A DNA stretch of 64,000 bases, taken from the NCBI RefSeq assembly GCF_900215355.1, contig NZ_OBEA01000009.1, positions 62,001-126,000 on the forward strand, given 5' to 3'. Positions 19,110 to 48,643 of this stretch are shown here, in pieces. A model generated the notes under the pieces. It was not told where the DNA came from and did no database searches. It saw nothing but the letters and a program-made list of their open reading frames with translations. The position numbers and the translations under genes were made by a program. Within the stretch, counting starts at the first letter, position 1. Each line of letters begins with the position of its first letter. This stretch comes from Pseudooceanicola antarcticus. GTDB lineage: Bacteria > Pseudomonadota > Alphaproteobacteria > Rhodobacterales > Rhodobacteraceae.

Positions 19110-19421
19110 CTAATCGACTTCCGGCGCGCTGTTGAATGTTTCTGCAATCTTTGATTTCTCTGAGTATACCCGTCCCAACTTGCCAAGTGGCCCTGGATCA
19201 GAATTTTCTTGATTCTGCCCACAGGCGAGTTGCGCTGGATGGATATCGAAGCCGAGTTTAACAAAACCGACCATGACTTCCCACATGTCTTGCAGGTAGG
19301 CTTCCTTTTGAGCCTGTGACATATCGGTTCCGTCCAGGAAGGATTGATAGCGCTCGACATCGACGGTGATTGTGGGCCGCGCCGCGCCATTGAATCTATT
19401 GCAGGTCCTGTCCTCACTCAT
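19110..19421 (-). CDS. Conserved 103-residue protein upstream of the recombinase
   Basis: An open frame of 103 residues with VDVERYQSFLDGTDMSQAQK and YLQDMWEVMVGFVKLGFDIH, then AQLACGQ. I recognise the LDGT-x-QK-x-LQ-W-x-FV-x-LGF-x-H-x-CG pattern as typical of small proteins preceding serine recombinases in alphaproteobacterial islands, but no function is known. Its ATG overlaps the stop of the preceding ORF (ATGAGTGA) and it ends 25 bp before the recombinase, so it is part of the same transcript. A recombination directionality or accessory role is a guess. Confidence 0.75.
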   Translation of the reverse strand: MSEDRTCNRFNGAARPTITVDVERYQSFLDGTDMSQAQKEAYLQDMWEVMVGFVKLGFDIHPAQLACGQNQENSDPGPLGKLGRVYSEKSKIAETFNSAPEVD

Positions 19422-22333: not shown

Positions 22334-22743
22334 TTTGAGCCTCATCATGTGTTTGTTGGAGCGCATTGCGCTTTGACGTGCCCATTTCTGAAACACGCCT
22401 TGCCCGGATTTCACGGGCCACACCACATCTGAGTACCTGTCTATTAATATCGATTTTTCGATATTCTTATTATTATTGATCAAACGAATAGCATTATTTG
22501 CAATATTTGTCAATAAATCGTGATTTAGGCTATTATTGCTTGACTTTATTTTGGAACAATATTGAGAATTCTGTTTCACGTCGCTTACACCCTTGAATTA
22601 TCACCGCTTTCGATGGGTTGCGCCTCTGGCATACGTGCGCTCTTAATGTTGGAACGGTAGCAGAATCCACGACAAACACAAGTAAAAACCATAATTCTCA
22701 ATTCTGTTCGCGTTGCTGAGTAACACTTTTGGAGGAATCATCC
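22334..22743. promoter_or_regulatory. AT-rich divergent region with paired repeats
   Basis: About 410 bases without a credible gene, the most AT-rich part of the island. ATTGAGAATT at 22561-22570 is matched in inverse by AATTCTCAAT at 22693-22702. AATTCTGTT followed by CACGTCGCT or CGCGTTGCT forms an imperfect direct repeat at 22567 and 22700. The region should hold promoters for the secreted-protein gene and the tyrosine recombinase. The repeats could be recombinase or repressor sites. Confidence 0.45.
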
Positions 22744-23367
22744 ATGTCACAAACCTCATCGCCCTTTCAGGGCATGTCCCTTTATAGTCAGCTCGGTGAG
22801 CGTAAGTATCTCACCAGCAGCGAGCGCAAGAAGTTCCTCGCCGCGCTGTGCGTGATCAAAAACCCCGCTGAGCGAACCTTCTGTGAGATGATCCACTGGA
22901 CCGGATGTCGGCCTAGTGAGGCGCTGGCACTGACCGCCATCAATATCGACCTTGATGAGAGCATGGTGATCATCCGCAGCCTTAAAAAGCGTGGTCGCCT
23001 CAAGGGTAAGCATTTCCGGCCTGTGCCTGTCCCATCGGAGTTTGCGCGAAGGCTCGACACGGTTCACGGGATAAGAGATGCGCAGGCATCTGCACGTGGC
23101 GGTGATGCATTGCCGCTCTGGCCATTTGGGCGCACGAAGGGCTGGCGTCTTGTGCGCTCGGTCATGGATGCGGCAGGGCTGAGCGGGGTCAAAAGCAATG
23201 CACGCGGGCTCCGTCATGCGCTTGGCGTTCATGCCGCTGTTATGCATGTGCCGGAAACCCGGCTGCAAACATGGCTGGGACATGCCAGCCTTGAGACGAC
23301 TTCCATCTACGTAGCCGCCTCTGGCCCTGAAGATCGCGCCATAGCGGCCCGTATGTGGGGGGTGTAA
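22744..23367 (+). CDS. Minimal tyrosine recombinase (catalytic domain only)
   Basis: 207 residues from ATG 22744, preceded by GGAGGA. Motifs in order: the first arginine in TGCRPSEALAL, the beta-hairpin lysine in LKKRGRLKGKHF, RGLRHALGVHA as box II, GHASLETTSIY with the histidine and nucleophilic tyrosine. The usual first histidine of the HxxR motif is arginine here (ARGLR). The N-terminal core-binding domain is almost absent, so it is shorter than XerC/D. It overlaps the following Cro/CI-type gene as TAATG. Resolution of multimers or cassette movement is plausible; it is not next to either island end. Confidence 0.85.
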   Translation: MSQTSSPFQGMSLYSQLGERKYLTSSERKKFLAALCVIKNPAERTFCEMIHWTGCRPSEALALTAINIDLDESMVIIRSLKKRGRLKGKHFRPVPVPSEFARRLDTVHGIRDAQASARGGDALPLWPFGRTKGWRLVRSVMDAAGLSGVKSNARGLRHALGVHAAVMHVPETRLQTWLGHASLETTSIYVAASGPEDRAIAARMWGV

Positions 23368-24410: not shown

Positions 24411-24652
24411 TTTTCTTCCGGTTTGAACAACCGTATCCAGAGACACCGACCCTGTTGGGCGGAAGTGACATGCTTTCCGGTCCAGCCGATATAGGTGCAG
24501 TTGATGTAGTAGCGCTTGGCGGTTACGCCGTAGCCATTACCGCTGCTGTGGAAGGTGTAAGACCAGACGACATGGGGCGTTCCCCAATATGTGACGGCAC
24601 CCCAAAACCCAAGCGGCGCGATCATCCAGAGAAAGAGCGCGGCGATCTTCAT
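24404..24652 (-). CDS. Small membrane/secreted protein downstream of the coupling ATPase
   Basis: 82 residues; the N-terminus MKIAALFLWMIAPLGFWGAV is a single hydrophobic segment or uncleaved signal, followed by an aromatic-rich region with two cysteines (NCTYIGW and GRCLW). The ATG overlaps the coupling-protein stop (ATGA) and has GGAGG upstream, so it is the last gene of the mobilization operon. Function unknown. Confidence 0.65.
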   Translation of the reverse strand: MKIAALFLWMIAPLGFWGAVTYWGTPHVVWSYTFHSSGNGYGVTAKRYYINCTYIGWTGKHVTSAQQGRCLWIRLFKPEENQ

Positions 24653-26058
24653 GACTTCCTCCCAGGTATTACCAGCTTGACTTTAGGATCAGGTGGCAGG
24701 CGTTTGCCCTCAAGCGGATTGTCCGCGATCAAATTGCAATAGGGCGCGATCTGGTTCTGATAGACGGCCCAATGCCTGAAAAAACCGACCCCCTGAATAT
24801 GCGTGAGCACCTGACCGCGCGGCAGGGCCATGAGTTCGGCGGGAGACATCTGCGGCTGCTTGATGAGGCTCATGTTGGTCTGTGTTTTCAGACCTGGGCG
24901 CTCACCGTTTAGACCCTCGGCAACCGCATGCTGTTCGCCCATGGCCTTGGACACGCGCTCAGCTTCTTCAAATGAGAAACTGAGCCAGTGTTTGGTGATG
25001 CTGTTATCTTCAATCGTTTCGGCTTCGCGCGCGCCGAACTTTCGGATCACTTCGGATCGACTTTGGCTGATCATATGCGCTTCGCCACCAAATGCACGCA
25101 GGGTGGTGAGGGCAGAAACCATTGACGCTAGGGGAGAATTCGTAAATTCGTCGGCCAAAATCCGCAAAGCGCCCGCACCATTATATAGAGCATCGCAGAA
25201 GGCGAGGATGTGAAGTGCATAATAGGGCCCGAGGCTGTTCATAAAACGCTGTGGTCCCACGAGGAAAATGATGTAACCTTCTCGGATCAAATCCTCATGC
25301 GAAATTGATGCATTGATCCCGGCATCGTGCAATCGGGTGCCGGGTGAAAATAGGTAAAGCGACCGCCTTGCTTCGGATACATGCTGAGGCCAACTCTCAT
25401 GGCTGGCGGCCTCCAATACAGTGCGGGCTAACGCTTGAAGCATCGGATGGCCCTCTGTGGCTTCGATTTCGGCCAAACCTTTGAGCATGGCCGGATCGCA
25501 CAAGATATCGGACAGAGAACCCGGCGTAGCCAGAGCCGTACTGTTCTTGAGAAGAACCGCAATTCCGAACCGGTTGATGTCCCTTGGAACATCTCGGAAC
25601 CATTTGTTTTTTGCATCTCCGCCAGCCGGTTCCGGAATGAGTGCGTTGACGATTGTATCGAGGGTAAACACCAAATCGCGCTGATCATGCCGGTATGTCG
25701 CAACTGCCGCCCCAAAGGGGTTTAAATTCACGCGTAAGTGGGCAAATTCGGGATGGACGCCCATATCGTCGATGACGGCAACTTTTCTGCCCTGCTTGTC
25801 GAGCATGTTGGCGACCTGCGCGGCAATTTCTTCTTTGCTGTCAAACATGAAGATGGCCTTGCGTGGCTCAGAACTCGCCAAAGAAAGCAGGCCAGGGACG
25901 CCGATGCATGTAGTTTTGCCTGTGCCGTTGGCAGCATAAGTCGAGCTATGCCCTTTCGGGGCGAAAATAGGCTCTCGGTCTTCAAACGTGAAACCGATCA
26001 GCCGTCGCCCCTCTGGATCAATGGCGCGGCCTGGGAGTTTGTTAAATGGGAAGCTCAT
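24649..26058 (-). CDS. VirD4/TraG-like coupling ATPase lacking its own membrane domain
   Basis: 469 residues. Walker A is STYAANGTGKTTC (residues 39-51), Walker B ALRILADEFTN, followed by MISQSRSEV, the layout of type IV coupling proteins that bring relaxase-bound DNA to a secretion channel. The protein begins MSFPFNKLPGRAIDPEGRRL with no transmembrane helices, whereas most VirD4/TraG proteins have two at the N-terminus. The gene directly upstream, overlapping by four bases, supplies a two-helix membrane protein. No secretion channel genes are in the island, so it probably docks onto a helper system. Confidence 0.85.
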   Translation of the reverse strand: MSFPFNKLPGRAIDPEGRRLIGFTFEDREPIFAPKGHSSTYAANGTGKTTCIGVPGLLSLASSEPRKAIFMFDSKEEIAAQVANMLDKQGRKVAVIDDMGVHPEFAHLRVNLNPFGAAVATYRHDQRDLVFTLDTIVNALIPEPAGGDAKNKWFRDVPRDINRFGIAVLLKNSTALATPGSLSDILCDPAMLKGLAEIEATEGHPMLQALARTVLEAASHESWPQHVSEARRSLYLFSPGTRLHDAGINASISHEDLIREGYIIFLVGPQRFMNSLGPYYALHILAFCDALYNGAGALRILADEFTNSPLASMVSALTTLRAFGGEAHMISQSRSEVIRKFGAREAETIEDNSITKHWLSFSFEEAERVSKAMGEQHAVAEGLNGERPGLKTQTNMSLIKQPQMSPAELMALPRGQVLTHIQGVGFFRHWAVYQNQIAPYCNLIADNPLEGKRLPPDPKVKLVIPGRKS

Positions 26059-30254: not shown

Positions 30255-33200
30255 GTGGCTCAACTTGAATTTTCGACATTTCAGGAACTACTTGAAAGGC
30301 GTGTTGCGAAACAAGCGTTGTATGACGCTGTGAAGCCAGAACTCCAACGCTATGCGGAAATAGCAAAAGGTGCCATGTCTGGTGCTGCCTACAATGAAAT
30401 ATTGGATGCCGCTTTCAAAGCCTCTGGTGGTGACGGTCGCCCCCCTGTGATCAGTGACCCGAGTGCCCTTGTTCGTCGAATGGGGAAAGGAAAAGACGGA
30501 AAAGGGACGGCGTACGGAACCGACCCGATACATGTCTACAGGATCTACTACTTCTTTCTGTTTCATGACGATGCGAGGCTTGCACCCTATGGTGAACGTA
30601 TAAGCCAGGCGCTGTTCGGTAAGAGTTTCTACGACGAATTTGAGCGCGACATGATCCGGTTGGGCATTCCGCGCCCACGCCACCTTCCAGCCGTTAAAAT
30701 TGCTCGTCTCGGCCCGATCAGTATTTCACTCGGAAATGCCGCCAATCTTCAACCGCTCGAAATCGACCAGCATTTCGAGGCAACACTGACTGAAGATGGA
30801 ATCCCAGATGTCTACGCAGCGCTTCATTGGAGCGCGCGCCTTTCAAACCTCCACGGTAGGACTGAAGAACACAAGCGACTAATGGCTTGGGCGCTTGATG
30901 ATGCATCAAATCGAGCGAAAGTCATGCTGATCAGCGGCCCAGGAGGTTCCGGTAAAACGCGCCTCGCCGCTCACGTGGTAACCAGATTGGTTCACGACAA
31001 AGACAAATTATGGCACGGCGATTTTCTTCCAAGCAATCCGGACGGAGCGATCTATAATGGCGCAGGCAACGGTGTGGCGTTGATTATTGACTATCCGGAG
31101 GAGCGCACTGCTGAGGTCAAAGCCATCTTAAAGTCTGCAGCCGAGGGTACGGAGTATGATCGTCCGATCCGAATTATTCTCGTATCGCGTCAGGATCGGC
31201 AGAGTTGGCTAAAAATCCTGAATGATCCCGGTTACCCGAACTTTGAGGAAATTCGTCTCGAAGCCAAGCCGTACCTCGATTTTGAAGATGCGGAGACCAT
31301 TGCGCACGATGTGATGGAAGATTATCCGGGGAGTATCGGACGGCGGGGGAAAATAAGGGCGAAATTTCTTCCCGACTGGCTTAATCACGACCCTGTTCAT
31401 AGACTGCCATTGAATGTCGTGGCCGCCTCGGTCCACGCGGTGCTGTTTCCGGATCGTGCTTTTTCGCTGAACGGCAAAGGCGTTCTGTCTGCGCTGGCCG
31501 ATTTCGAACTGAGGCGGGTGCGCTCATATTCTGAGCGAGATTTGGGGGCGCGCAACGCGCTCGAAAAGCTCTTGGCGCTATCGCTTCTCACTCCGACCGG
31601 CCTCGGAAAAGATACCATTCACGAGTTGGGTGAGAGTGGCATTTGTGAAGGAAAGACTGGCAACCACCTCTTGGAGGCCGTTCAGGCCACGCCGTTTTGG
31701 CGAAAACGAACAGCCACGCAGCCTGGGCATCTAGTACGGATCGAGCCGGATTTGCCCGCGGCTGCGTTCTTGACGAAGGCGTTGAAATTGGATGACCCAC
31801 CGCCAGGGCTTGCCGGGTGGATGGCACCTGCGGCGGCAGAGGCCAAGGAGGATTTTGGAGATATCCTAGCGCGCGTGATCGCGGACATTGCGTCTTTTGA
31901 CGTTGAGGCAGGTCGGGCGGTTGAACAAGTTTCGATAGCAATGTTGGACACGCGACCCAAGCTTTTAACTCCGCTCTACAGGATTGCGTATCGGCCCACA
32001 TCGACATTCTCAGCAAAATTTGTAGTCGCAATATGCGATAGGCTCTTGGCGCTCAATCAACCCGACCCTACACGAGCGGCCCTGTTGCTTCGTAAAGCAA
32101 ATGCTCTGATTGCTCATGGTGCAAACTCAGACGCGCTTTCCGTTATTGAAGAGGGTATTGACAGATTTCAAGCTCTGGACGGCGACGGGAATGATGAAAT
32201 TCATGCAAATCTCGGGTTGCTCTATCGGTATCAATGCAACGCACTGTTTAAGATTGGACATCTGGAACACGCCGAATGGGCGATACATGATTCCGCTCAG
32301 TATTTTGAGCAATTGTTTCGGAATAACCCTGAGCGGTATGCGGAAGATTATGCAGCGACATTGGATACGTTCGCGGCAATCTGTTCCGAGACGGAACGTT
32401 TAGAAAAGGCAGTTTCCTACAGCGCTGAGGCAATCAGATTACTTAAGGAAGTGGATCGCCTTCGCCCAGGCACGGTGAAGGAAGCAATCGGAGTATCCAG
32501 CCTCAACCAGAGCAGGTTCTTATTACAGGCTGGCAGACATGGCCAAGCGCTTGAAGCAATCGATGGCTCAATCGAGATATTCAAGGAGCTCTCCGAGGGC
32601 AATGTGAGCCGTTACAAGCCGATGTTGATTCAGGCCCTGCTGAATAGGGGGGCGACGCTGGCTTCAACTGGATCGTACGATGAAAATCTGGTCGCACTGC
32701 AGGAGGCAGAAAAGCTCTGTGAGCCGATAGCTGCATTGCACCCCGTCGTTTTTCTACCGCAATTGGCTCTGATAGAGCTCAATCGTTCAAACGCCTTGAT
32801 GCGCTTGGAGCGGTTTCAAGAGGCCATTGTTGCCGCTGGACAGGCCGAAGAAAACTATCGTGCTGCTTTGGGTTCGAGTGGTGATGCCACAAATTCGCAA
32901 CTTGCCCAAGCAATGCACAACAAGGCCATGGCACAATACTTGGCCAACTTGCATGATGACGCGGTTCTCACTGTCAACGAAGCTTTGGAGCTTTTCCAGG
33001 AGACGCCCGATGTCTCGAAAGGCGCGCAAAATATAGTGTCTGGAATGCTTGCAGATTTTCTGCACTTGAAGGCCGTCAATCTCTTTGCCTTGACTAAGGT
33101 GGAGTCCGCCTTGGTGGCAATTGCTGAGGCGGTCGCGACGCTCGAAAAGCTGCAAGCGGCAGAGCCAGAAAGGCACATAAAGAAGCTTTGCGCGTTTCAA

Positions 33201-33515
33201 GAAAAGCAGTACGAATACTTGGTGGATTTGAACCGTGTCGGGGATGCGTACGAAATCTTAGTCAGTGTCATGGAGAATGCTCAGGCGTTTTCTTGGTTGG
33301 ACGCTGAGTGGCACCGGAAGGTATCTGACCGTCTGCACTTGAAATATATGCAGCTTTGCCAGACAATGGCCGTGCCAGCCGATCCGAAATTTCTTCGACC
33401 TCCAGCGCCCTTTTCCATTGGGCCGGTTGATGTTTCGCCGCCAACAGATGATTTTCAGCTCAGCACCTACACCTTCTCATACGACTTAAATTGGTTGGGC
33501 GATTTTAAACTTTAG
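30255..33515 (+). CDS. Large STAND-like P-loop NTPase with C-terminal TPR repeats
   Basis: 1086 residues from GTG 30255, preceded by GGGGAAAG. An N-terminal helical region of about 180 residues with no recognised domain precedes a P-loop NTPase: Walker A ISGPGGSGKTR at 227-236 and Walker B GVALIIDYPEE near 273-283, then IRIILVSRQDR. From about residue 620 to 1010 there are successive TPR-like helix pairs (AALLLRKANALIAHGANSDA, QALLNRGATLASTGSYDENL, ALIELNRSNALMRLERFQEA). This signal-transduction ATPase plan (effector, NTPase, TPR sensor) is that of antiphage STAND/Avs-type proteins. Defence function is inferred from the architecture and neighbours. Confidence 0.82.
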   Translation: MAQLEFSTFQELLERRVAKQALYDAVKPELQRYAEIAKGAMSGAAYNEILDAAFKASGGDGRPPVISDPSALVRRMGKGKDGKGTAYGTDPIHVYRIYYFFLFHDDARLAPYGERISQALFGKSFYDEFERDMIRLGIPRPRHLPAVKIARLGPISISLGNAANLQPLEIDQHFEATLTEDGIPDVYAALHWSARLSNLHGRTEEHKRLMAWALDDASNRAKVMLISGPGGSGKTRLAAHVVTRLVHDKDKLWHGDFLPSNPDGAIYNGAGNGVALIIDYPEERTAEVKAILKSAAEGTEYDRPIRIILVSRQDRQSWLKILNDPGYPNFEEIRLEAKPYLDFEDAETIAHDVMEDYPGSIGRRGKIRAKFLPDWLNHDPVHRLPLNVVAASVHAVLFPDRAFSLNGKGVLSALADFELRRVRSYSERDLGARNALEKLLALSLLTPTGLGKDTIHELGESGICEGKTGNHLLEAVQATPFWRKRTATQPGHLVRIEPDLPAAAFLTKALKLDDPPPGLAGWMAPAAAEAKEDFGDILARVIADIASFDVEAGRAVEQVSIAMLDTRPKLLTPLYRIAYRPTSTFSAKFVVAICDRLLALNQPDPTRAALLLRKANALIAHGANSDALSVIEEGIDRFQALDGDGNDEIHANLGLLYRYQCNALFKIGHLEHAEWAIHDSAQYFEQLFRNNPERYAEDYAATLDTFAAICSETERLEKAVSYSAEAIRLLKEVDRLRPGTVKEAIGVSSLNQSRFLLQAGRHGQALEAIDGSIEIFKELSEGNVSRYKPMLIQALLNRGATLASTGSYDENLVALQEAEKLCEPIAALHPVVFLPQLALIELNRSNALMRLERFQEAIVAAGQAEENYRAALGSSGDATNSQLAQAMHNKAMAQYLANLHDDAVLTVNEALELFQETPDVSKGAQNIVSGMLADFLHLKAVNLFALTKVESALVAIAEAVATLEKLQAAEPERHIKKLCAFQEKQYEYLVDLNRVGDAYEILVSVMENAQAFSWLDAEWHRKVSDRLHLKYMQLCQTMAVPADPKFLRPPAPFSIGPVDVSPPTDDFQLSTYTFSYDLNWLGDFKL

Positions 33516-34033: not shown

Positions 34034-35737
34034 CTACGTGCCTTCGCCATCATCAGTTTGCTCCGTATTCGACAGCAACGGCGGTCGCTCTTGCATCCGC
34101 CACCGCCGCACCACGTTGGTCACATGGTCAGCATCCGCACCGTCCGTTTCCCACAGAGCTGCGAACGGCACATCGGCGCTTTGCGGCATATGAGCTTTGT
34201 CAAGATCGTTGAAGCGCAGCCGTACCGGCACGACAGTGCCTTCGCCGACGACCAGAGCTTCTTGCGTGCGCAGGGTCGGCAAGATGCTCACGAGGCTCCG
34301 CACGGAATCGGGCAACGCACGCTGGACGAAATTCTGATCCTGCTCGTTGCTCATGCGCAGCGCAATCAACGTGTTGCACTGTGAAAGGATCGACTCGGCC
34401 AGCTCGGAGGGGCGCTGCGAGATCAATCCTAGCCCAACACCATATTTGCGGCCTTCCTTGGCGATCCGCGACAATGCCTGCTTGGTTGGCTGGAAAGCGG
34501 CATCGTCACGCCGAGGTGCATAGCGGTGAGCCTCTTCACAGATCAACACTACCGGCACCTGTACCGGGCGAGGGCTCCAAACCGCAAAGTCAAAGACCAT
34601 GCGGCAGAGCACAGAGACCACGACATCGACAACATCAGATGGAACCCCCGAAAGATCGATGATCGAAAGGGGTTTGTTGCCTACCGGGATCCGCAAATAC
34701 TGAGCGACGATTTCGGCGAGCTGATCGCCCACAGTTTCATCAGGACGCATCATAAAACCAAAGCGGCTGTCCTGTTGCAGTGTTTCAGCCTTATTCTTGA
34801 TCTTGAGATACGAATCCTGCCTGGAAGCCTGCGTTGGCATCGCCGCATCGATATGTGCCAACATATCACCTAGACGATATGGCACGGGGGTATCGACCGT
34901 GATCTTCTCCGTAGGAATGTCATTAGCACCGAAATCGCGCCGCGCTGCCAAGATGGCATCCTTAAGAATATTGGTCTGGCTGGTAGCGACATGCTCTGTT
35001 TTGCCGATGAATAACTCGACGCTTTCTTCAAAGTTTAGGAGCCAATGCGGCAGATTCAGCGTGGTTGGATCAATCACTTCCGCCAGATCGGGGAATGCCC
35101 GCCGGTACTCATTGTGCGGATCAAGCAATATTACATGGGCGCGCGGCGCAACTTCCAGAATAGAACGCAGCAACACCGTGACCGAACAGGATTTGCCGGA
35201 CCCAGTAGTGCCCAGGATAGCGAAATGCTTGCCAAGCAACTCGTCGGTCAGCAAATACACCGGCAGGGATGCGGCTTGCGAAAGCGCTCCAATATGTACG
35301 CTCGGCTTGTCGGGACGGTTGTATATTCGTTGAAGCTCAACGACGCTTGCTACGAAGATACCCTGTCCTGGAAGGGGGTAGGTCACAACACCCCGCTGAA
35401 ACATGAACTCATTTTCGCCGAGGCCGGTTCGTACAGCCTCACCGAACAGCTCAATTTCGAGCCACTTTGCGTCTGACGCGCCCTCACCAAGAGCGTCACG
35501 ACCGGCAATTGCAGCCCCGCCTTCAAGCATGGTTTCGGTCATCCGAAGTGCTGTCACCACGCCAAAAACAAGTTTATCGCCCGCTTCGATCTTCACAATT
35601 GAGCCGACCTGCCCAACTGCATAGCGGCGGCTCTTATAGGTCCGGTGGAGGTCTTCTACCGTTCCTTCAAGCTCGCCGATCACCTTGGAACCAGAGACCT
35701 CGACCACGCGCCCGATTTTTAGGATTGGATCGCTCAT
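34034..35737 (-). CDS. HerA-like ATPase/helicase (partner of SIR2)
   Basis: 567 residues from ATG 35737. An N-terminal HAS-barrel-like region (KIGRVVEVSGSKVIGELEGT) precedes a FtsK/HerA ATPase core with Walker A FAILGTTGSGKSCS (residues 172-185), Walker B VPVVLICEEAHRYAP and the sensor segment GLGLISQRPSELAESILSQC. HerA forms hexamers. Its start shares one base with the SIR2 stop (TGATG), so the two proteins are made together, the layout of SIR2-HerA antiphage systems in which the complex depletes NAD or degrades DNA. It is the last gene of the five-gene operon. Confidence 0.92.
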   Translation of the reverse strand: MSDPILKIGRVVEVSGSKVIGELEGTVEDLHRTYKSRRYAVGQVGSIVKIEAGDKLVFGVVTALRMTETMLEGGAAIAGRDALGEGASDAKWLEIELFGEAVRTGLGENEFMFQRGVVTYPLPGQGIFVASVVELQRIYNRPDKPSVHIGALSQAASLPVYLLTDELLGKHFAILGTTGSGKSCSVTVLLRSILEVAPRAHVILLDPHNEYRRAFPDLAEVIDPTTLNLPHWLLNFEESVELFIGKTEHVATSQTNILKDAILAARRDFGANDIPTEKITVDTPVPYRLGDMLAHIDAAMPTQASRQDSYLKIKNKAETLQQDSRFGFMMRPDETVGDQLAEIVAQYLRIPVGNKPLSIIDLSGVPSDVVDVVVSVLCRMVFDFAVWSPRPVQVPVVLICEEAHRYAPRRDDAAFQPTKQALSRIAKEGRKYGVGLGLISQRPSELAESILSQCNTLIALRMSNEQDQNFVQRALPDSVRSLVSILPTLRTQEALVVGEGTVVPVRLRFNDLDKAHMPQSADVPFAALWETDGADADHVTNVVRRWRMQERPPLLSNTEQTDDGEGT

Positions 35738-36813
35738 CAGTTCCCCCCGGCAATATATGAAACCAGATTTTCGAATTTCCACAGATCGGCTTCTAAGACG
35801 CCGAGGGACGATTCCACATCAAGGGCATGTCCGATAAACCCGCCATTGTCCTTGCCGCCAATGAAGACGCTAAAGCGAGAATCGCAGCGGTCACAGAACG
35901 CTTGCAAACGCTGATCCTGCTTATCGCGATCCTGCTCTGGTCCCACGAAGGCGATGACGGTGAGATTGCTTTGCGGAGAATTTATTGCATCGCAAATGGC
36001 TTCGTTGATGTGCTCGTCATTAAAGCTGTAGCCGAGCACGACGAGGTGATTATTGACACCGGTTCGCCGCAACCGGTTCCGAAAGCGGCCAATCAGTGTT
36101 TCATATACCCCATACTGGGTTTGTATGTATTTTTGCTCAGAGGGATACACCACCACCGGCTCATCCGCAGCATCTTCGTTTGCGTTGCGTCCACGCCGGA
36201 CATGACCATCGGCATCGCGTGTCCAGTTGATGGAGCCGTGGAGCTTGTGAATCCGATATGCGATCCCTGGCCCAGCCTCATCAAAGGTTTGCGGATCGAA
36301 CCAGGCGCGATTGGTGCCGCGAAAGCCGTCAGAGTATGGCAATCGAAGAGAATCCAGACTAGCCTCAAGCAGCGTATCGTAATTTAGGCTGAATACATCG
36401 CGAGGACCGCGTTCACGAGCACCGCGCAGGCGCTGTAAGAACCGCTCGTGATGACCGCTCGAACTCCAGTCATCAGCCACTTCGCTTACAACGCGTTTCT
36501 TGATTTCGGCAAGCCATCCATCAATCTCATCGACGGTAATTTCATGCGCATCGCCGGTCATGATCGTGTTCAGAATCTCGCGGTAACGGACGAGATAGTT
36601 GATTAAGTCCTCAATTGTTGGGGGGCGGTCACCCGCAGGCTTTAGTCCGGCAAAATGATCGAGTAGCTTTTGATCGAGACCGTTCAAAACGCTCTCCGTG
36701 AGTTTGCCGATTAGTGGCTTGCCTGCGCAAGCGCTGCAACCTGCACCGATCAGAAAGCAGGTGTCGTTTCCGGTGAGCCATTCGGTGATTTGTTCACGGA
36801 CATCGCTACTCAT
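35737..36813 (-). CDS. SIR2-domain NADase of a SIR2-HerA defence pair
   Basis: 358 residues. The NAD-binding SIR2 motif is FLIGAGCSACAGKP (residues 20-33), followed by VFSLNYDTLLEASL with the conserved asparagine-aspartate and YRIHKLHGSINW with the catalytic histidine; VVLGYSFNDEHINEAI closes the fold. Such prokaryotic SIR2 proteins hydrolyse NAD rather than deacetylate. The start has GAGGAGG and lies 34 bp after the restriction-modification gene stop, across an AT-rich spacer that could hold a secondary promoter. It is coupled to herA. Confidence 0.92.
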   Translation of the reverse strand: MSSDVREQITEWLTGNDTCFLIGAGCSACAGKPLIGKLTESVLNGLDQKLLDHFAGLKPAGDRPPTIEDLINYLVRYREILNTIMTGDAHEITVDEIDGWLAEIKKRVVSEVADDWSSSGHHERFLQRLRGARERGPRDVFSLNYDTLLEASLDSLRLPYSDGFRGTNRAWFDPQTFDEAGPGIAYRIHKLHGSINWTRDADGHVRRGRNANEDAADEPVVVYPSEQKYIQTQYGVYETLIGRFRNRLRRTGVNNHLVVLGYSFNDEHINEAICDAINSPQSNLTVIAFVGPEQDRDKQDQRLQAFCDRCDSRFSVFIGGKDNGGFIGHALDVESSLGVLEADLWKFENLVSYIAGGN

Positions 36814-36847: not shown

Positions 36848-39800
36848 TCATGAGGGCACCTGTACAGCTTCAATTGTTTCTGCATCATCCTTTGATAGGC
36901 CGAATAGCGCGCTCACCTGGCGATCTAGCTGCGCCCGCGCATCCTTGGCCGTGCGCTCTCGCAGTGTCCGCTCCCGCGGCGTGCGCGCGGCAGTCAATGC
37001 TGCTGCCGTCTTTACAACCTTTTCTGCCTGCTGCTCGATTGCTGCCTTCGTTGCATCATCTTCCGGGACGGGGATTGGCAGGTCTTTGATAAATTGCTTG
37101 CCGTGAGAATAATAACCGCCCCGGAATACGCTGGTGTTCGTTCGGATCATCGCTTCACAAAGCGGATGGTTCAGGACGGCAAGTAAATAGAGCGTTGAGA
37201 TCGGAGCGTCATCCTTGGCACGGATCATGTAATATGGGCCGTTGCCGCCTCCAGTGATAATCGTGTTCGTCGTATCATAGGCGTAACGCGGCTCACGGGA
37301 GAGAACGGGCAGTATGATTTTCGGGCTGTCGAACTTCGTCAGGCTTTGTGAGCGTCCATACTGATAGAATTGCCGCTCGTCAGCCGCGCCGCCGACAATA
37401 TTGCGTACTTCGAGCGTTTCGCGCTGCGCGCTCAAATATTCCAGACAGTGCGGGTAATTTTCCGCCATTTCATCGGGCTGCAATAGCCGGGCGCGCAGCT
37501 TGCCTTTTGGTGTGGTCACCAACTCGTAAGGAAAGATCATCCAGGCGTTGGCCTCAGGCTGGCCAAACGCATGAAGCGGCGCATCATGCAAACATGGGCG
37601 AAGGATGCCCCGCTCGATCCTCCATTCGCGGTCCTGCCACTCAATCCAGACATAATCATCGTCGGAGCGCGTGGGGCACAGGAAATAGATTTCATCTTTG
37701 CTGGTCTGAACGCCGACCTCGATGTTCGAGAGCGCGTGCAGCCTCCCCGGAACCTCGTTTTTGATCCGCGCAAAGAGTGCGCGCACGTCCTCTTGTCCGA
37801 ACGCCCAGGGGGCTTCGCTCATTTCAGAGGCAGGCACCGATGTTACCGTGCCCGTCCGGCCATAGCGCCATTCTTCCAACGGACAGGCTTGCTCTACACT
37901 GACCGCCTCGCGGCCAGCGCGGTCCATGACCAGAATGCAGGTATAGTTGGACGTGCCGCGCCCAAAGACCGGTTTCACCCCGAAGTTGACGATCTCTTCC
38001 AGAACCGGCGAGTGGGTCAGAAGTCCGCGCAGCGCCCGGCCTGAGCGGATCGTCATGAACTTGTTCGGGACAATAACGCCAATGCGTCCTGTTTCCTTGA
38101 TCAGGCCGAGGGAGCGCTCGATGAACAAGGCATATTTATCAAAATTATCCTGACGCGCCGTGCTATAGGGGGATTCTGTTGCGTGATAAAACGCGGCCTC
38201 CTCAGGCGAGTAGGCGACCATGTTCTGAATACGAATATAAGGTGGGTTGCCAACGATGACATCGAAACCGCCTGCGACCATTTCGTCGGCAAACTCGTCC
38301 TGCCAACGGAATGGCTTGATCACGTCATACAGCGCCGCTGGCAGCGGACCACACGCAGCCTCCCACTCCTGCGTACTCACAAGCGAATTGCCGCAGCGAA
38401 TGCGGCTATCGAGCGCGGGCAGCGCCGCATGCCTCTTGCGGCGCACATAATCTTTCAGCGCTGCCTCGCTTTCCTCCTCGATAAGCTTGAGTAGCAGACT
38501 GAATTGTGCGACCTCAACGGCATTGGCATCGATATCGACGCCGCGCAGATGTGCCAGCAGTATGCGGCGCTTTTCGTCAAAGGTCAGCCGCCAGGAATTT
38601 TCGCCGATCTGATAGATCGTGGTGCCCGCATGCGTCTCCGGGCCGGTTGCGACATACCAATCCAGATAATGGCCGAGCAGGAAGTCGTAGGCGGAGAGCA
38701 AAAAGATACCGGAGCCACAGCATGTATCGGCTAGCGTGAAGGCCGCTAGTTCTTGTGGAGAACGGCCAGTAAGGAGCGGACCGAGCGCGCGGGCAACAAT
38801 AGCATCGGCGATAAATCTGGGCGTAGGCACCACGCCGCCACTTTCGCGGATTTCCGGCTTGCTGGTGATGGTGACAGCGCCATCCTGCACCACGATCACT
38901 TCACCGAGGAATTGCTCATAGATTTCGCCCAGCACCTCGGTTTCAATCACCGCAAATGTGTAGGGGCTGAGCGGGTAATACAGCTCGTCGATGATGCTTT
39001 GCAGCACCTCGTCACTGATCCGTATACCCAGCGGGTCATCGTCTATCAGGTGGAACAGCCCCGAGTTGTAAAATTCATCGGCGCGACGCAGGACATCCAT
39101 CAAGGCATCAAAAGTTGCGCTGCCATCGAGGTTCTTGAGCGTCTCGTATTTCTCTATCTCACGGTCTTCGCAAATTCGAAGGAAGACGATCCGCGAGAGA
39201 AAAAGCTGCACCGCGTAGGTCAACTCTTCCGAGCTGAGGCCAGGCGTGTTTGCGTGGATATCGGCGGCGAGGCGCGCACGCCAATTGCGAACCTGATTGA
39301 GAAAGAAGTCATCGAATTGCTGCGAGCCATGTCGCGTCGTATCGATGGCAAAACGTCTGTCGAATGCGCCGGAGAGCACGCTTTCCCGTGAGAGCAATGA
39401 CCACAGCTCATCAAACCGGGCATCAAAGTCCCGGTATCCGAACTGATGCAGCCGTGCGACGTGCACTTCGTCGGTTTCAACCGGCACCGGCTTGCAATCA
39501 TAGATGACTAGCTGGTGAAAATTGGTGACAACCGATATTGGTAAGCTTGCCGAATACCCGTAGCGCCGTGCCTGGAACGCGGGGGCGCGGTCACGATCAA
39601 TTCGAACGCTAGGCTTTTTCGCCTCTATGAAAAGCTTGCGCTGCCGCGCAAGCCGAAGCTCATAATCTGGCCGTTTTGACAGGCGCTCTTCCCCAACTTC
39701 GACAGTCGCCTCTTCAATAACCTCACGGTAGATCAACGGCTGGGCGCGCCTATTATGTACGTCCCAGCCAAAAGCTTCGAGCAGCGGTGTTATGAATTCC

Positions 39801-39952
39801 GTACGGGCCTGAGTCTCATTATAGTTTGTATCGCGGTAATCCGCTTCGTTGAGTCGGAAGCGTTCAACAAGCTCAGCCACCCGAGCGCGGGCGTGTTCCT
39901 TCGCCTCATTGCTATCGGTAGCCACGGTTCCGGCTTGCGAAGCGTTACTCAT
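36848..39952 (-). CDS. Type IIG (Eco57I-like) restriction-modification enzyme
   Basis: 1034 residues combining nuclease, adenine methyltransferase and specificity domains. An N-terminal PD-(E/D)xK site is seen as SKRPDYELR and KLFIEAKKPS (D96, E110, K112). The methyltransferase has motif I DTCCGSGIFLLSAYDF (409-424) and motif IV VIVGNPPYIRI (565-575), so it methylates N6-adenine. The C-terminal third (ALSNIEVGVQTSKDEIYFLC onward) is a TaqI/Eco57I-type target-recognition domain. Its ATG overlaps the stop of a separate methyltransferase by four bases, as in Eco57I systems where a second enzyme protects the site. Recognition sequence unknown. Confidence 0.92.
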   Translation of the reverse strand: MSNASQAGTVATDSNEAKEHARARVAELVERFRLNEADYRDTNYNETQARTEFITPLLEAFGWDVHNRRAQPLIYREVIEEATVEVGEERLSKRPDYELRLARQRKLFIEAKKPSVRIDRDRAPAFQARRYGYSASLPISVVTNFHQLVIYDCKPVPVETDEVHVARLHQFGYRDFDARFDELWSLLSRESVLSGAFDRRFAIDTTRHGSQQFDDFFLNQVRNWRARLAADIHANTPGLSSEELTYAVQLFLSRIVFLRICEDREIEKYETLKNLDGSATFDALMDVLRRADEFYNSGLFHLIDDDPLGIRISDEVLQSIIDELYYPLSPYTFAVIETEVLGEIYEQFLGEVIVVQDGAVTITSKPEIRESGGVVPTPRFIADAIVARALGPLLTGRSPQELAAFTLADTCCGSGIFLLSAYDFLLGHYLDWYVATGPETHAGTTIYQIGENSWRLTFDEKRRILLAHLRGVDIDANAVEVAQFSLLLKLIEEESEAALKDYVRRKRHAALPALDSRIRCGNSLVSTQEWEAACGPLPAALYDVIKPFRWQDEFADEMVAGGFDVIVGNPPYIRIQNMVAYSPEEAAFYHATESPYSTARQDNFDKYALFIERSLGLIKETGRIGVIVPNKFMTIRSGRALRGLLTHSPVLEEIVNFGVKPVFGRGTSNYTCILVMDRAGREAVSVEQACPLEEWRYGRTGTVTSVPASEMSEAPWAFGQEDVRALFARIKNEVPGRLHALSNIEVGVQTSKDEIYFLCPTRSDDDYVWIEWQDREWRIERGILRPCLHDAPLHAFGQPEANAWMIFPYELVTTPKGKLRARLLQPDEMAENYPHCLEYLSAQRETLEVRNIVGGAADERQFYQYGRSQSLTKFDSPKIILPVLSREPRYAYDTTNTIITGGGNGPYYMIRAKDDAPISTLYLLAVLNHPLCEAMIRTNTSVFRGGYYSHGKQFIKDLPIPVPEDDATKAAIEQQAEKVVKTAAALTAARTPRERTLRERTAKDARAQLDRQVSALFGLSKDDAETIEAVQVPS

Positions 39953-41706
39953 GCCTGGCTCCGTGTTTTCTTACCGGCGCGGCGGCGTCCAAGTCGCCGG
40001 TTCCGCATCTTCTCCCAGATGTCGCGTAGCATCGCGCATTCGGTCTTTGAAAGCCCCATTCGCCGCATCAAAATGCGGCGATTGTTTTCTTCAAGTACGG
40101 TCTCAAGCCGACCGGCCCGAATTAATGCGTCACACTCTTCGAGCGGCAGGGCGTCGCCAAGAGTCGATGGCATAAGCAGCTTTTGCGCTTCGCTTGGCTC
40201 CAGTTCGAGAACGCCGCCTCCATAGCTACGCCCTTCGATTTCTGCAGAAGCAGCCGTCAAATAGCTGTAGCTATTAGCGACAATCTCGCGCGGATCCGCG
40301 CCATGGCTTCGCATGCGGTGAATTGTATCGGTCGCCGTCGCTTCGGCCTCATTGAGAACGATGCGAGGAAAGTCATATATCTGGCGAAAAACAAAAGCAT
40401 CTGGCACATAGACAGAAGGCACGGCGTACCAGGGCGTACGCACCGAGCACTTATAGCCCTTATTCACGTCTTGGTTTTCGCCTAGCTGGATATAGTTAGC
40501 AAGAGCCCCTTTGGGCTTTGTGCCGTTGATTGGTGCCAGATGTAAAAGGTGCACCCGCTGCTCCTCGCTGGCGAGCGTACGCCAGCCAGCCTTATCAATC
40601 TTCGCGCCTATCAGATGGGAAGAGCGCCCGATCAGCGGGATTGTATAGCCTTGTAGACCAAGCTCTGCGACTTCGCTTTCGCGCAGTACAAAAAACTGGT
40701 TCTTTCCCGTGACCACCCCGACGTTCACCGAAGCATAAGTGCCAAGCTCTACGGTATTTTCACCGGCGCGCAGAGCGCGCATGAAGGAAATTTCTTCTGC
40801 GTTTAGGAAATATTTGAGCCATTTTTCGCTATCATGGCAGACCGTTTTGGGTGATGCGCCCCTCAAAACCTCGTGCGGCGTGCGTCTGACGATATCGGCG
40901 ACCGAGTCGCTTTCCGTCAAATTAACCTTGCAGGGATTGCTGGCCGAAGGCGCAGGGCGGGCCTCATCGGCGAGCAGGAGCAACACTTCTTGCTCAGCCT
41001 TTTCAAAGAACAGCTCGTTGCAGGCAATTAGATCGACGCGGCCAAACCTGTCGGTCAAAAATGAGCGCAACTGGGCTGCGTAACTTACTTGCAAAAGCTC
41101 TGCGGGAAGGACCAACGCCATGCGCCCGCCTTCCTTTAGCGCCGCTGCCGCCGCGACCACAAACGGCACCCAGATATTTGTTAGGCGGTTCGGAGAAAGA
41201 CCTTGCCCATGCATGATATCCATCGCACGGCTGCGATGGGGCTCCGGAAAACTTTGATAGCGGATGAAGGGTGGATTGCCGACCACAACGTCAAATTCCG
41301 GACGCCTTGGTTGGTTCCACCACGCAAAAAAATCGCTGTTTACTACAACATCATTAGCACGCATGCCCAAGCCATCCTTGAGGCGCATGCGGGCTTTATC
41401 AGCCTCATCCGGTATGATTTCGATTCCACGCAGATGGTTCGCACGAGCAGGGCCCTTTGCCCCCAAAGCTTCCAGGCGCATACTTGCAGCTTCTAGGAAT
41501 GTGCCATCACCGCAGCTCGGTTCCAGTACAGTTTCGCCCGCTCCCCGGATCGCCCAAGCGCACAGCCAGCGCGCCAACTCAAACGATGTATAGTAGCCAC
41601 CGCGCAGCTTGTCGGCGTCAAGCGCTGTGAAGCGTCCGCTATGGGTGCGCTGCGGCGTTTCCCTGGTCGCAGAATCCACCCCAACGCTACTTAGGTGCTT
41701 GTTCAT
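39949..41706 (-). CDS. N6-adenine DNA methyltransferase
   Basis: 585 residues from ATG 41706. Motif I is VLEPSCGDGTFLEAA (residues 60-74) and motif IV VVVGNPPFIRY (140-150). The central part (LGTYASVNVGVVTGKNQFFV) is a TaqI-like specificity region. No nuclease motif is visible, so it is a stand-alone methylase paired with the fused enzyme downstream. Its start overlaps the ribbon-helix-helix gene and its stop overlaps the type IIG gene, both by ATGA. The basic C-terminus (MRNRRLGRRRAGKKTRSQA) may bind DNA. Confidence 0.9.
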   Translation of the reverse strand: MNKHLSSVGVDSATRETPQRTHSGRFTALDADKLRGGYYTSFELARWLCAWAIRGAGETVLEPSCGDGTFLEAASMRLEALGAKGPARANHLRGIEIIPDEADKARMRLKDGLGMRANDVVVNSDFFAWWNQPRRPEFDVVVGNPPFIRYQSFPEPHRSRAMDIMHGQGLSPNRLTNIWVPFVVAAAAALKEGGRMALVLPAELLQVSYAAQLRSFLTDRFGRVDLIACNELFFEKAEQEVLLLLADEARPAPSASNPCKVNLTESDSVADIVRRTPHEVLRGASPKTVCHDSEKWLKYFLNAEEISFMRALRAGENTVELGTYASVNVGVVTGKNQFFVLRESEVAELGLQGYTIPLIGRSSHLIGAKIDKAGWRTLASEEQRVHLLHLAPINGTKPKGALANYIQLGENQDVNKGYKCSVRTPWYAVPSVYVPDAFVFRQIYDFPRIVLNEAEATATDTIHRMRSHGADPREIVANSYSYLTAASAEIEGRSYGGGVLELEPSEAQKLLMPSTLGDALPLEECDALIRAGRLETVLEENNRRILMRRMGLSKTECAMLRDIWEKMRNRRLGRRRAGKKTRSQA

Positions 41707-41894
41707 CGCTCTTGCCCCACGTGGAACAAAGGCTGTTCGTCGCGAAGCAAGCGCTCTATAGCCTCTCGCACCACCCACGCCACCGAGACCTTATTTTTGT
41801 CTGCAATTTCGAGCAATTCCGTATGTTGCTCTTCGGTCAAGCTGACAGACAAGCGGTGCGATGCTTTGGGCGTGTTCTTTTTCTTTGCTGGCAT
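41703..41894 (-). CDS. Ribbon-helix-helix protein heading the defence operon
   Basis: 63 residues: a lysine-rich start MPAKKKNTPKASHRLSVSLT, the RHH strand RLSVSLTEEQ, and helices LLEIADKNKVSVAWVVREAI then ERLL. This is the CopG/Arc-type fold. As the first gene of a restriction-modification operon it probably acts as a controller that represses or times expression. Its own start codon lies inside the first of four CACCA/TGGTG boxes (41892-41936), which supports autoregulation. It overlaps the methyltransferase start by ATGA. Confidence 0.85.
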   Translation of the reverse strand: MPAKKKNTPKASHRLSVSLTEEQHTELLEIADKNKVSVAWVVREAIERLLRDEQPLFHVGQER

Positions 41895-44208: not shown

Positions 44209-45495
44209 CTACATCTCCAACTTCGGCCCATGGTCACGCTTGATGTCCTGTTCTTGACGCTTCTGCACGAGTTCGCGGGCTTCCTCACCCATGGCAAGGT
44301 ACTCCATCACATCCCGGCTGAGCCGCGAGAGCATCTTTTGTTCATGCTTGCGGCGCAGGACGATCAGAGCTTGCAGCGCTCGGCGTTCGGCAAGCTGCTT
44401 TTCAATGATGGCCTGCCGTTCCTGGCGGTCGCGTTTCTGAGCTTCCGCTGCTTCTTTCTCGTTCTGGGCACGGATTTTACGGCTGTTGCCGGTGACCCAA
44501 CTCCACAGGCCTTTCAGACCGCGTGGCAGACGGGCGGCGCGGTTGCATTCTTCGTTTTGCCAGCGTTCGGTGTGTCTCTGCTTGAGTTCAGCGCGTAGGG
44601 CGCGATGCCGGTCCACCATATCCTTGCGCCGGAAGGTGAGCGACAGACCCTGCTTGCGATATTTCTCCTCCAGCTCATGCACATAAGACTGCACCTGCTT
44701 GGTCATCTTTGCGGCGATCCATTGCCGGGTTTCATCGACGGACAGAAGCTCCGGCGCGTCGCCAAGGCGGTTTTTGACGTCTTTGTTCTTCACGCCCGCA
44801 AAACGGGACAATGAAAAGACCTCACCGCGATAATCCAGCACCACAAAGCCGCGTCGGTCGCCATGTGCCAGAAAATAGCCATGCTCGAACAGTGCATTGC
44901 GCAGGGAGGAGGCAGAGTCCGACTTGGCCCAGCACTCCTGTATGATCTCCTTCAACCGCTTCGGATCATGGCCCAGCCGTTTGGCCTGCTGCCATTCAGC
45001 CAGCGTGAAGTTGAGCGGGCTGGGATTCCGCCCCCGTTTGAAGCCCTCCGGCATGTCCCAACCATGCTCGATATAAAGTTCACGGGCAATGCCGTTCAGC
45101 TTGTTCTTGTAATGCGGCAGGTTGATCGCCTTTAGCTCTCGAACATCGATCCGCGACCAAACGGCATGCGCATGCCGCCGTCCTTCCTTCTCATGAAAGA
45201 CGATGGCGCGGGGCTGGCCTTCCAGCCCAAGCTGTTTTTCGATCCGGTTCACCGCAGCCTCAAAGATGTCGATGGGCACATTTTCGGTCTCAGGGGGGCT
45301 GAGTGAGACCGAGAACAGGAAATTCTTGCACCGCGTCCCCTTGGCGATAGCCTGCACTTCTTGCAAAGCGCCGTGCAGCGTATCGGCGGCAAACCCACTC
45401 AGCTCGTGCAGTTCCACATGCTCGTTATCCCTCGTGTTCATCAGATGTCGCGCCAGATTGGCGGCATTCGCTCTTTCGCTGGCTTTGAGGATCAT
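44209..45495 (-). CDS. MOBP-type relaxase (mobilization nuclease)
   Basis: 428 residues. The N-terminal relaxase domain shows MILKASERANAANLARHLMN, GTRCKNFLFSVSLSPPE and the metal-binding histidines in FHEKEGRRHAHAVWSRID, the three-histidine motif of Relaxase (PF03432) enzymes; the catalytic tyrosine is not obvious in the first residues. Arg/Glu-rich coiled coil fills the C-terminus (KEAAEAQKRDRQERQAIIEK). It nicks oriT and leads the strand into the recipient. Its start overlaps the mobC stop (ATGA). In the integrated state the pair has no element promoter directly upstream. Confidence 0.9.
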   Translation of the reverse strand: MILKASERANAANLARHLMNTRDNEHVELHELSGFAADTLHGALQEVQAIAKGTRCKNFLFSVSLSPPETENVPIDIFEAAVNRIEKQLGLEGQPRAIVFHEKEGRRHAHAVWSRIDVRELKAINLPHYKNKLNGIARELYIEHGWDMPEGFKRGRNPSPLNFTLAEWQQAKRLGHDPKRLKEIIQECWAKSDSASSLRNALFEHGYFLAHGDRRGFVVLDYRGEVFSLSRFAGVKNKDVKNRLGDAPELLSVDETRQWIAAKMTKQVQSYVHELEEKYRKQGLSLTFRRKDMVDRHRALRAELKQRHTERWQNEECNRAARLPRGLKGLWSWVTGNSRKIRAQNEKEAAEAQKRDRQERQAIIEKQLAERRALQALIVLRRKHEQKMLSRLSRDVMEYLAMGEEARELVQKRQEQDIKRDHGPKLEM

Positions 45496-45914
45496 GGCCC
45501 CTCGCTTTCCAGCCCAAGGGCAACGATCAGCATTGAGCGCATCGCCGCGATATCCGCGCAGGCCGAGCGCAACTCGCTTTCGGTATCCGGATTTACCGGC
45601 AAGGAGCCGGTATGCACCGCCTTGGCAAGCTGGTTGACGTTGTTGCTGAGCCGGGAAGAACCGAGGGCCGATAAGACCCGCGCCAACTCCCGATGGTCGG
45701 CAACTGGGTGCGTGCCGCGCCGCCGGACCTTTTTCAAGTCCTTCTGAAACAGTACCGCCTTGATATAGGTGCCCAACGGAACCCCGTTGGCAGCGTCAGC
45801 CAGCTTGGCACGTTCCTCGAAGGTAAAGCGCAGGGAGAACGGCGTTGGCGTCTTGGTCGCCGATGTCTGAGAATCGCCGGAATGTTGATTGAAATCAAGG
45901 TGTTGGTTCGTCAT
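45492..45914 (-). CDS. MobC-like mobilization accessory protein
   Basis: 140 residues from ATG 45914 (a frame nine codons longer exists). The MobC pattern is clear: FSLRFTFEERAKLADAANGV, PLGTYIKAVLF, RRRGTHPVADHRELARVLSA and LGSSRLSNNVNQLAKAVHTG. MobC binds oriT and helps strand opening for the relaxase encoded downstream with a four-base overlap. GGGGTGCGG lies before the start. In the circular form the recombinase frame would end 20 bp inside this gene, coupling the two; in the integrated form the 5' side is cut off at 46011-46020. Confidence 0.9.
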   Translation of the reverse strand: MTNQHLDFNQHSGDSQTSATKTPTPFSLRFTFEERAKLADAANGVPLGTYIKAVLFQKDLKKVRRRGTHPVADHRELARVLSALGSSRLSNNVNQLAKAVHTGSLPVNPDTESELRSACADIAAMRSMLIVALGLESEGP

Positions 45915-46017
45915 CACCGCACCCCAGATCGTGAAGATCACAGTCTGCGAGATGGACTTCCCATTCTTCCAGGACTTCGAAGAGAGAGTTCAAGTTCTCT
46001 CTCTCCAGCAGCACCAT
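45895..46017 (-). other. Detached native 3' end of the serine recombinase frame
   Basis: Reading leftward from ATG at 46015-46017 (the same M-V codons as residues 514-515 of the recombinase), the frame gives MVLLERENLNSLFEVLEE and continues to TGA at 45895-45897, 38 residues after the shared M-V. The frame phase across GCACCATCTC is identical at both ends of the island. The segment has an amphipathic, leucine/glutamate-rich look typical of a protein tail, and it contains the dyad AGAGAGAG/CTCTCTCT (45981-46004). I interpret it as the part of the recombinase gene separated by integration. Confidence 0.75.
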
Positions 46018-46020
46018 CTC
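46011..46020 (+). repeat. Right attachment repeat (attR core)
   Basis: GCACCATCTC, identical to 17540-17549 and in the same orientation. To its left is island DNA (mobC), to its right GC-rich chromosomal DNA leading to katG. Before insertion, tRNA-Thr would have been followed directly by the sequence now at 46021. Confidence 0.8.

Positions 46021-48643
<2,623 letters not shown>

Follow-up and report, generated by a model that had tools for sequence, protein, structure and literature searches.

Tn916 encodes a tyrosine integrase, and the joining of its ends is not known to alter the integrase protein. The transfer genes of Tn916 lie at one end of the element, are promoterless when it is integrated and are reported to be transcribed, once the element has excised, through the junction of its ends (PMC11658703, citing Celli and Trieu-Cuot 1998). 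The island described here may resemble Tn916 in that the mob genes at its far end would gain a promoter across the join, with which consensus scans for promoter-like sites agree; unlike in Tn916, the join falls within the coding sequence of the recombinase, which the following gene overlaps. An att site within the integrase gene, which is split by integration, has been described for archaeal 'suicidal' integrases of the SSV1 type, and the same account describes these as tyrosine recombinases that lose the catalytic domain on splitting and calls self-disrupting recombinases exclusively archaeal (PMC8371274). Similarly, the att site of the island family is predicted to lie inside the integrase gene, but the enzyme is a serine recombinase and would lose a C-terminal tail only. 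As reportedly described by Tojo et al. in 1996, the IntP protein of the Myxococcus phage Mx8 undergoes a C-terminal change on integration; Mx8 is a phage and not a mobilizable island, and it limits the claim of novelty for bacteria. In mycobacteriophage BPs, the attP lies in the repressor gene, and integration alters the C-terminus (33 residues) and the behavior of the repressor, the tail acting as a degradation tag (PMC4557955). Unlike in BPs, the state-dependent gene of the island would be the recombinase and not a repressor. In ICEKp1, the promoter of the integrase gene is switched according to whether the element is integrated (PMC13023037).

Integrative and mobilizable elements (IMEs) of the serine-recombinase class combine a serine recombinase with mobilization genes, and some carry their own coupling protein (PMC5704250). 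In table rows for serine IMEs in a 2017 review, the targets are internal sites of protein genes, with many sites for Tn4451, and rows for tRNA 3' ends hold tyrosine integrases (PMC5704250); a 2014 article stated that serine integrases were not known to specify tRNA genes (PMC4383910). Unlike the serine IMEs in those rows, the island's serine recombinase targets a tRNA 3' end. We found no description of an attP inside a serine integrase gene in the open-licence PMC literature, which is not proof of its absence from print. Judged from sequence comparison, what is new here is a family of serine integrases that target tRNA genes, in which the C-terminus depends on the state of the element and is coupled to the mob genes, and for which Mx8, BPs and the archaeal integrases are partial precedents.

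The island and its computed circular form

The repeat GCACCATCTC occurs exactly twice in the window (the whole 64,000-nucleotide stretch of Pseudooceanicola antarcticus DNA that was analysed), at 17540-17549 and 46011-46020, compared to a mean expectation of 0.21, and two copies were present in 0 of 100 shuffles. The features of the island are as follows.

17546-46020: island, sitting in tRNA-Thr(GGT)
17471-17545, plus strand: tRNA-Thr(GGT), the insertion target (attB), with the T-loop GTTC at 17522-17525
17540-17549, plus strand: attL core repeat, containing the CCA end of tRNA-Thr(GGT)
17448-19085, minus strand: large serine recombinase in its integrated-state reading, 545 aa (ATG at 19085; element-coded 17550-19085)
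19110-19421, minus strand: orfA, 103 aa, a small conserved gene upstream of the recombinase
24649-26058, minus strand: coupling-protein-like gene (VirD4/TraG type)
44209-45495, minus strand: relaxase, MobA/VirD2 type (Pfam Relaxase)
45492-45914, minus strand: mobC-like gene (Pfam MobC at E 7e-4, short of the curated threshold)
45895-46011, minus strand: detached recombinase 3' end, 38 codons at 46011-45898 followed by the stop at 45897-45895; at the same time the predicted attP right arm, with a T-arm-like GAAC at 45991-45988
46011-46020, plus strand: attR core repeat

The integrated element holds both an integrase and a relaxase of its own, as an integrative and mobilizable element does, and it is probably an integrative, mobilizable-type island whose attP falls in the 3' part of the gene for its large serine recombinase. 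Nine loci from congeners and relatives were examined for tRNAs, and one of these, L242 from the congener genome G450, was an island-free site with the same tRNA-Thr upstream of katG. This locus was 90% identical (222/247) to the left flank of the island up to CACCAT, and katG was 91% identical over 178 bases; since the intergenic DNA at the join has mostly diverged in G450, the comparison demonstrates the insertion but not its exact base.

The recombinase frame, on the minus strand, enters the left repeat as GAG-ATG-GTG-C, as the initial annotation had read it. When the circle was computed by joining the ends at GCACCATCTC, this frame yielded a 553-aa recombinase with a 38-residue tail, LLERENLNSLFEVLEEWEVHLADCDLHDLGCGDDEPTP, and a stop at 45897-45895. 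The mobC ATG lies at 45914, giving a 20-bp overlap with the rebuilt recombinase, and the mobC stop overlaps the relaxase ATG as ATGA at 45495-45492; the 38-codon continuation from the right repeat to a stop 20 bp inside mobC and the ATGA overlap were both borne out, the former also by the tails of relatives. The initial annotation had further proposed two small overlapping ORFs upstream of the recombinase and thus five overlapping genes in the circle, which overstated the case, as only orfA has relatives in the loci compared (79 loci, redundancy not removed), and orfA ends 24 bp short of the recombinase ATG with no overlap. Two other ORFs were rejected as genes: the 43-aa ORF before orfA, whose sole match was the window's own locus, and an overlapping-frame ORF upstream of the recombinase, with matches in four loci, one of them the window's own. 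The order in the circle is orfA, recombinase, mobC and relaxase, four supported genes that do run in one direction and meet at two overlapping junctions. We infer that orfA may encode a regulator or a directionality factor.

In the integrated state, the final ~30 residues of the recombinase are antisense tRNA. The Resolvase domain and the zinc ribbon scored above the Pfam cut-offs, and the Recombinase domain slightly under (20.2 vs 21.1 bits). The 512 element-coded residues were modelled with AlphaFold2 (mean pLDDT 78.5, pTM 0.47); the model showed the parts customary in such enzymes, with long helices at 360-408 and 412-439, by prediction only a coiled coil after the zinc ribbon, and its best PDB matches were serine integrase complexes, although with low TM-scores of 0.23-0.37 (top 8). 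Taken together, the domains, the model and the PDB matches indicate that the recombinase-side part is by prediction a complete enzyme to which the tail is an addition, the 512 retained residues including the predicted catalytic, zinc and coiled-coil parts. The integrated recombinase frame runs antisense through the host tRNA-Thr gene (17448-17545), and presumably the recombinase transcript does so as well, with a possible cost to, or control of, the tRNA.

Recombinase ends, tails and natural joins in relatives

A 38-codon open frame alone is weak evidence, and it is the comparison with relatives that makes a strong case for the predicted join. A search of 394 Rhodobacteraceae genomes found relatives of the recombinase (E<=1e-60) in 74, the window's own included, and 58 loci came from named genomes, titled mostly as Alphaproteobacteria. 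We counted 103 distinct recombinase 3' ends. In 93 of them the frame passes into an antisense tRNA, and the CCA of this tRNA appears as TGG at the anchor (TGGTG in 77, TGGCG in 16); the tRNAs cover 18 anticodon types, so that serine integrases of this family use the CCA ends of a wide range of tRNAs. In 92 of these 93 ends the recombinase frame stays open across the CCA anchor, the exception being L021 with a stop immediately before the anchor, and the resulting antisense-tRNA tails vary widely, some being one residue long. Insertion of this type would account for the antisense-tRNA residues with which such recombinases end in databases. No tRNA was called at the other 10 ends, which comprise two natural joins (see below), an insertion in a protein gene (L058), and others that are antisense-tRNA-like or stop at once. 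In genome G418, the recombinase end (L058) runs into one half of a protein gene and the tail end (L146) into the other half, in place of a tRNA; we take the gene to be DJ-1/PfpI-like, and the arrangement suggests an off-target insertion by the same recombinase family.

Relatives of mobC were found in 49 of the 74 recombinase-bearing genomes and in 41 of the 48 genomes that supplied 49 of the 58 named loci. Our pair set comprised 36 recombinase/mobC pairs on one contig plus this island (37 pairs); G119 contig 7, with fragments of both genes fused, was left out. In the 36 pairs mobC lies to the 5' side and shares the strand of the recombinase, usually at a distance of 14-44 kb; G270b, at 182 kb, is probably another element. 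One recombinase end is common to G270a and G270b, and another to G272a and G272b. The tRNA CCA served as anchor, in place of a longest-common-substring core search that gave too much noise in many pairs. With this anchor, the recombinase frame runs across the join and on into a related tail in 32 of the 37 pairs, 31 times at the top-ranked anchor and once (G295b) at the second. The five misses were pairs in which the cores disagree (G003a), a duplicated tRNA stretch outranks the join (G086), the recombinase match ends early with no tRNA in range (G125c), the mobC match is absent from the fetched stretch (G153), or no tRNA was called, an in-frame join being visible there in the longest-common-substring search (G349). 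The anchor is read in the phase NTG-G in 27 of the 32 crossings and NNT-GG in five, and the tail continues in the matching phase.

Viewed from the other end, the tail is present at 69 of 73 distinct mobC 5' ends. A tail motif, composed after the tails were seen, matched 66 of these ends, L094 falsely, and four more tails were seen otherwise (L175, L201 and L205 in the pair analysis, and L225); the ends lacking a tail were L094, L126 and L133, and L143 is cut by a contig end. A conserved helix-like motif, LFE-L-EW, lies within tail codons 12-28. Genome G125 has three recombinase/mobC pairs on three contigs (L166-L171), and G272 has two tailed mobC ends before a single recombinase (L195-L197). 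In two loci, L221 (G151 contig 27) and L222 (G125 contig 12), a C-terminal recombinase remnant, the tail and mobC are contiguous and in frame, with no tRNA called in the fetched stretch, showing that the predicted joint exists in nature. The recombinases of both are 5'-truncated, so that these loci may have been left behind by tandem elements or by a captured circle, and tandems or composites such as those of G125 and G272 may be the source of natural joins. Overall, the annotated order of recombinase, mobC and relaxase across an attP join is supported by the ends of relatives and by the natural joins, and many of the related islands that the initial annotation proposed to search for share the tail. 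On plasmids, no joined recombinase-mobC was found among 268 recombinase-matching records (all <60% identity) and five mobC-matching records, four of them inspected. In three of these four, no recombinase is annotated within 4 kb upstream of mobC; the fourth, unannotated, has a recombinase match ~17 kb from mobC. The lone relative on a viral contig (L220) ends in tRNA-like antisense residues and not in the native tail.

Since the C-terminus is state-dependent in all but one of the tRNA-adjoining ends and the native C-terminus is conserved, the tail might act as a directionality switch, such that the tailed enzyme of the circle favors attP x attB and the antisense-tRNA-ended enzyme does not. The zinc and coiled-coil part is described as governing direction in serine integrases (PMC3783163), but the variability of the antisense-tRNA tails gives the integrated form no constant tail. 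Such a switch, which we regard as possible though rather less than even, is compatible with the preferred explanation, namely an attP inside the recombinase gene and a tail that is the native C-terminus.

The tail as attachment arm and as coding sequence

In serine integrases, a zinc-domain motif is shifted by 5 bp between attP and attB (Rutherford et al., PMC3783163). The expected pattern of a short shared core and a zinc motif 5 bp further out in attP was found on the right arm of the island family. In all 31 pairs compared, the T-arm GAAC lies 20 bases from the anchor in attB (the tRNA) and the corresponding motif lies at +25 in the tail, being GAAC in 29 pairs and AAAC in two. Arm identity peaked at a shift of +5 (0.428, compared to a maximum of 0.308 in 500 shuffles), although a shift of -3 (0.361) and a few others were also above the shuffles, and +5 was the best single shift in 19 of the 31 pairs. 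Identity was 0.496 when each attB was paired with its own attP vs 0.469 when the pairs were permuted, a value reached by 44 of 5000 permutations. The left attachment arms gave no shift signal in the same test. The fourth and fifth bases are equal at both ends in 32/32 pairs, which is partly built in, as anchors were ranked by core match. These comparisons indicate that the DNA of the tail doubles as an attP arm, with a mimic of the tRNA T-arm 5 bp further out. This role is absent from the account in the initial annotation, and it places the predicted attP inside the recombinase gene. Since the integrases appear to read the T-arm, their att sites should be predictable from sequence, which could help integration tools.

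Over codons 1-28 of 22 gap-free tails, dN/dS was 0.40 in the predicted frame vs 0.91 and 1.27 in the shifted frames, and the observed share of third-position differences was reached by 34 of 20000 column shuffles. If the tail were merely the attP arm, with attP happening to abut the recombinase gene and the frame open because its stop has to fall somewhere past it, it would have no protein role and no part in mobC regulation. The first ~11 tail codons do hold the attP arm, and over all pairs their dN/dS (0.61) is near that of the shifted frames (0.70, 0.92), a weak signal that is as expected if DNA recognition also constrains these codons; in close pairs it was 0.35 vs 0.86 and 1.21. However, codons 12-28, which lie outside the arm and hold the LFE-L-EW motif, gave 0.26 (close pairs) and 0.28 (all pairs) vs 1.04-1.43 in shifted frames, and 0.23 in 11 non-overlapping pairs with a third-position excess (p=1.2e-4), indicating that purifying selection acts on this part of the tail. 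An arm without a protein role is thus unlikely.

We consider it less likely still that the tail is a leader peptide or uORF of mobC, with translation starting at an NTG of the core and the transcript coming from the chromosomal flank of the integrated island. This island has an in-frame ATG in its core and a promoter-like site on the chromosome side, but the flanking DNA differs in each element, the tail is continuous with the recombinase in the natural joins, and the core of the five NNT-GG (phase-2) pairs has no in-frame NTG, so that the tail there is best read as the recombinase C-terminus. A chance open frame is ruled out by the dN/dS contrast between predicted and shifted frames.

Expression in the two states and other genes of the island

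Promoters were scanned for with a sigma-70-type consensus, whose matches are promoter-like sites and no proof of promoters. Among the relatives, 22 of the 60 stretches preceding orfA carried such a site, compared to 7.2 expected, and 0 of the 64 tail intervals from core to mobC did so (2.5 expected; the window's own excluded). The same kind of scan of this island found no promoter-like site between attR and mobC, in agreement with the claim in the initial annotation that integrated mobC has no element promoter; the picture is complicated by a chromosome-side site at 46311-46282 on the minus strand, which aims at mobC and could drive it in the integrated state. Between the island and katG, a chromosomal stretch (46282-46345) is 84% identical over 50 bases in the congener G450; it is probably the katG control region and overlaps this promoter-like site. 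From the distribution of promoter-like sites in the island and its relatives, mobC and the relaxase are likely silent when integrated and, by the precedent of Tn916, likely expressed only after excision.

The explanation that we consider probable as a whole joins the attP-in-recombinase structure to circle-only expression of mobC and a function of the tail. Integration at the tRNA CCA end splits off the last 38 codons of the recombinase and leaves them ahead of mobC at the far end, the integrated frame then passing into antisense tRNA; joining of the ends would restore the conserved native C-terminus and set the recombinase stop inside mobC. A putative promoter upstream of orfA would feed mobC and the relaxase in the circle only, with putative translational coupling at the recombinase/mobC overlap, so that the mobilization genes would be switched on after excision. 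The tail would also serve a function in the protein while the element is circular, most probably in the integration step. More tentatively, and with the odds somewhat against it, the recombinases of the whole family may be state-recording integrases, the tailed enzyme existing only in the circle and the antisense-tRNA-ended one only in the chromosome, which would bias direction in a manner coupled to mobilization; a single stretch of DNA might then serve as attP arm, T-arm mimic, C-terminal domain and mobC leader. The island offers a testable bacterial case of an element that ties its transfer genes and the structure of its integrase to the inserted state.

Other genes were also observed on the island. 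A short tyrosine recombinase gene (22729-23367, 212 aa) lies within this island bounded by a serine recombinase. The gene at 30255-33515 encodes a 1086-aa protein in which, by our reading of the sequence, a P-loop-like stretch and TPR-resembling repeats are present; it had no match in PADLOC or NCBIfam and is possibly an uncharacterised defence gene. A SIR2-like and HerA-like gene pair, a known anti-phage defence type, is located at 34034-36813, and a type IIG restriction-methyltransferase-like gene with an adjoining methyltransferase gene is located at 36848-41778.
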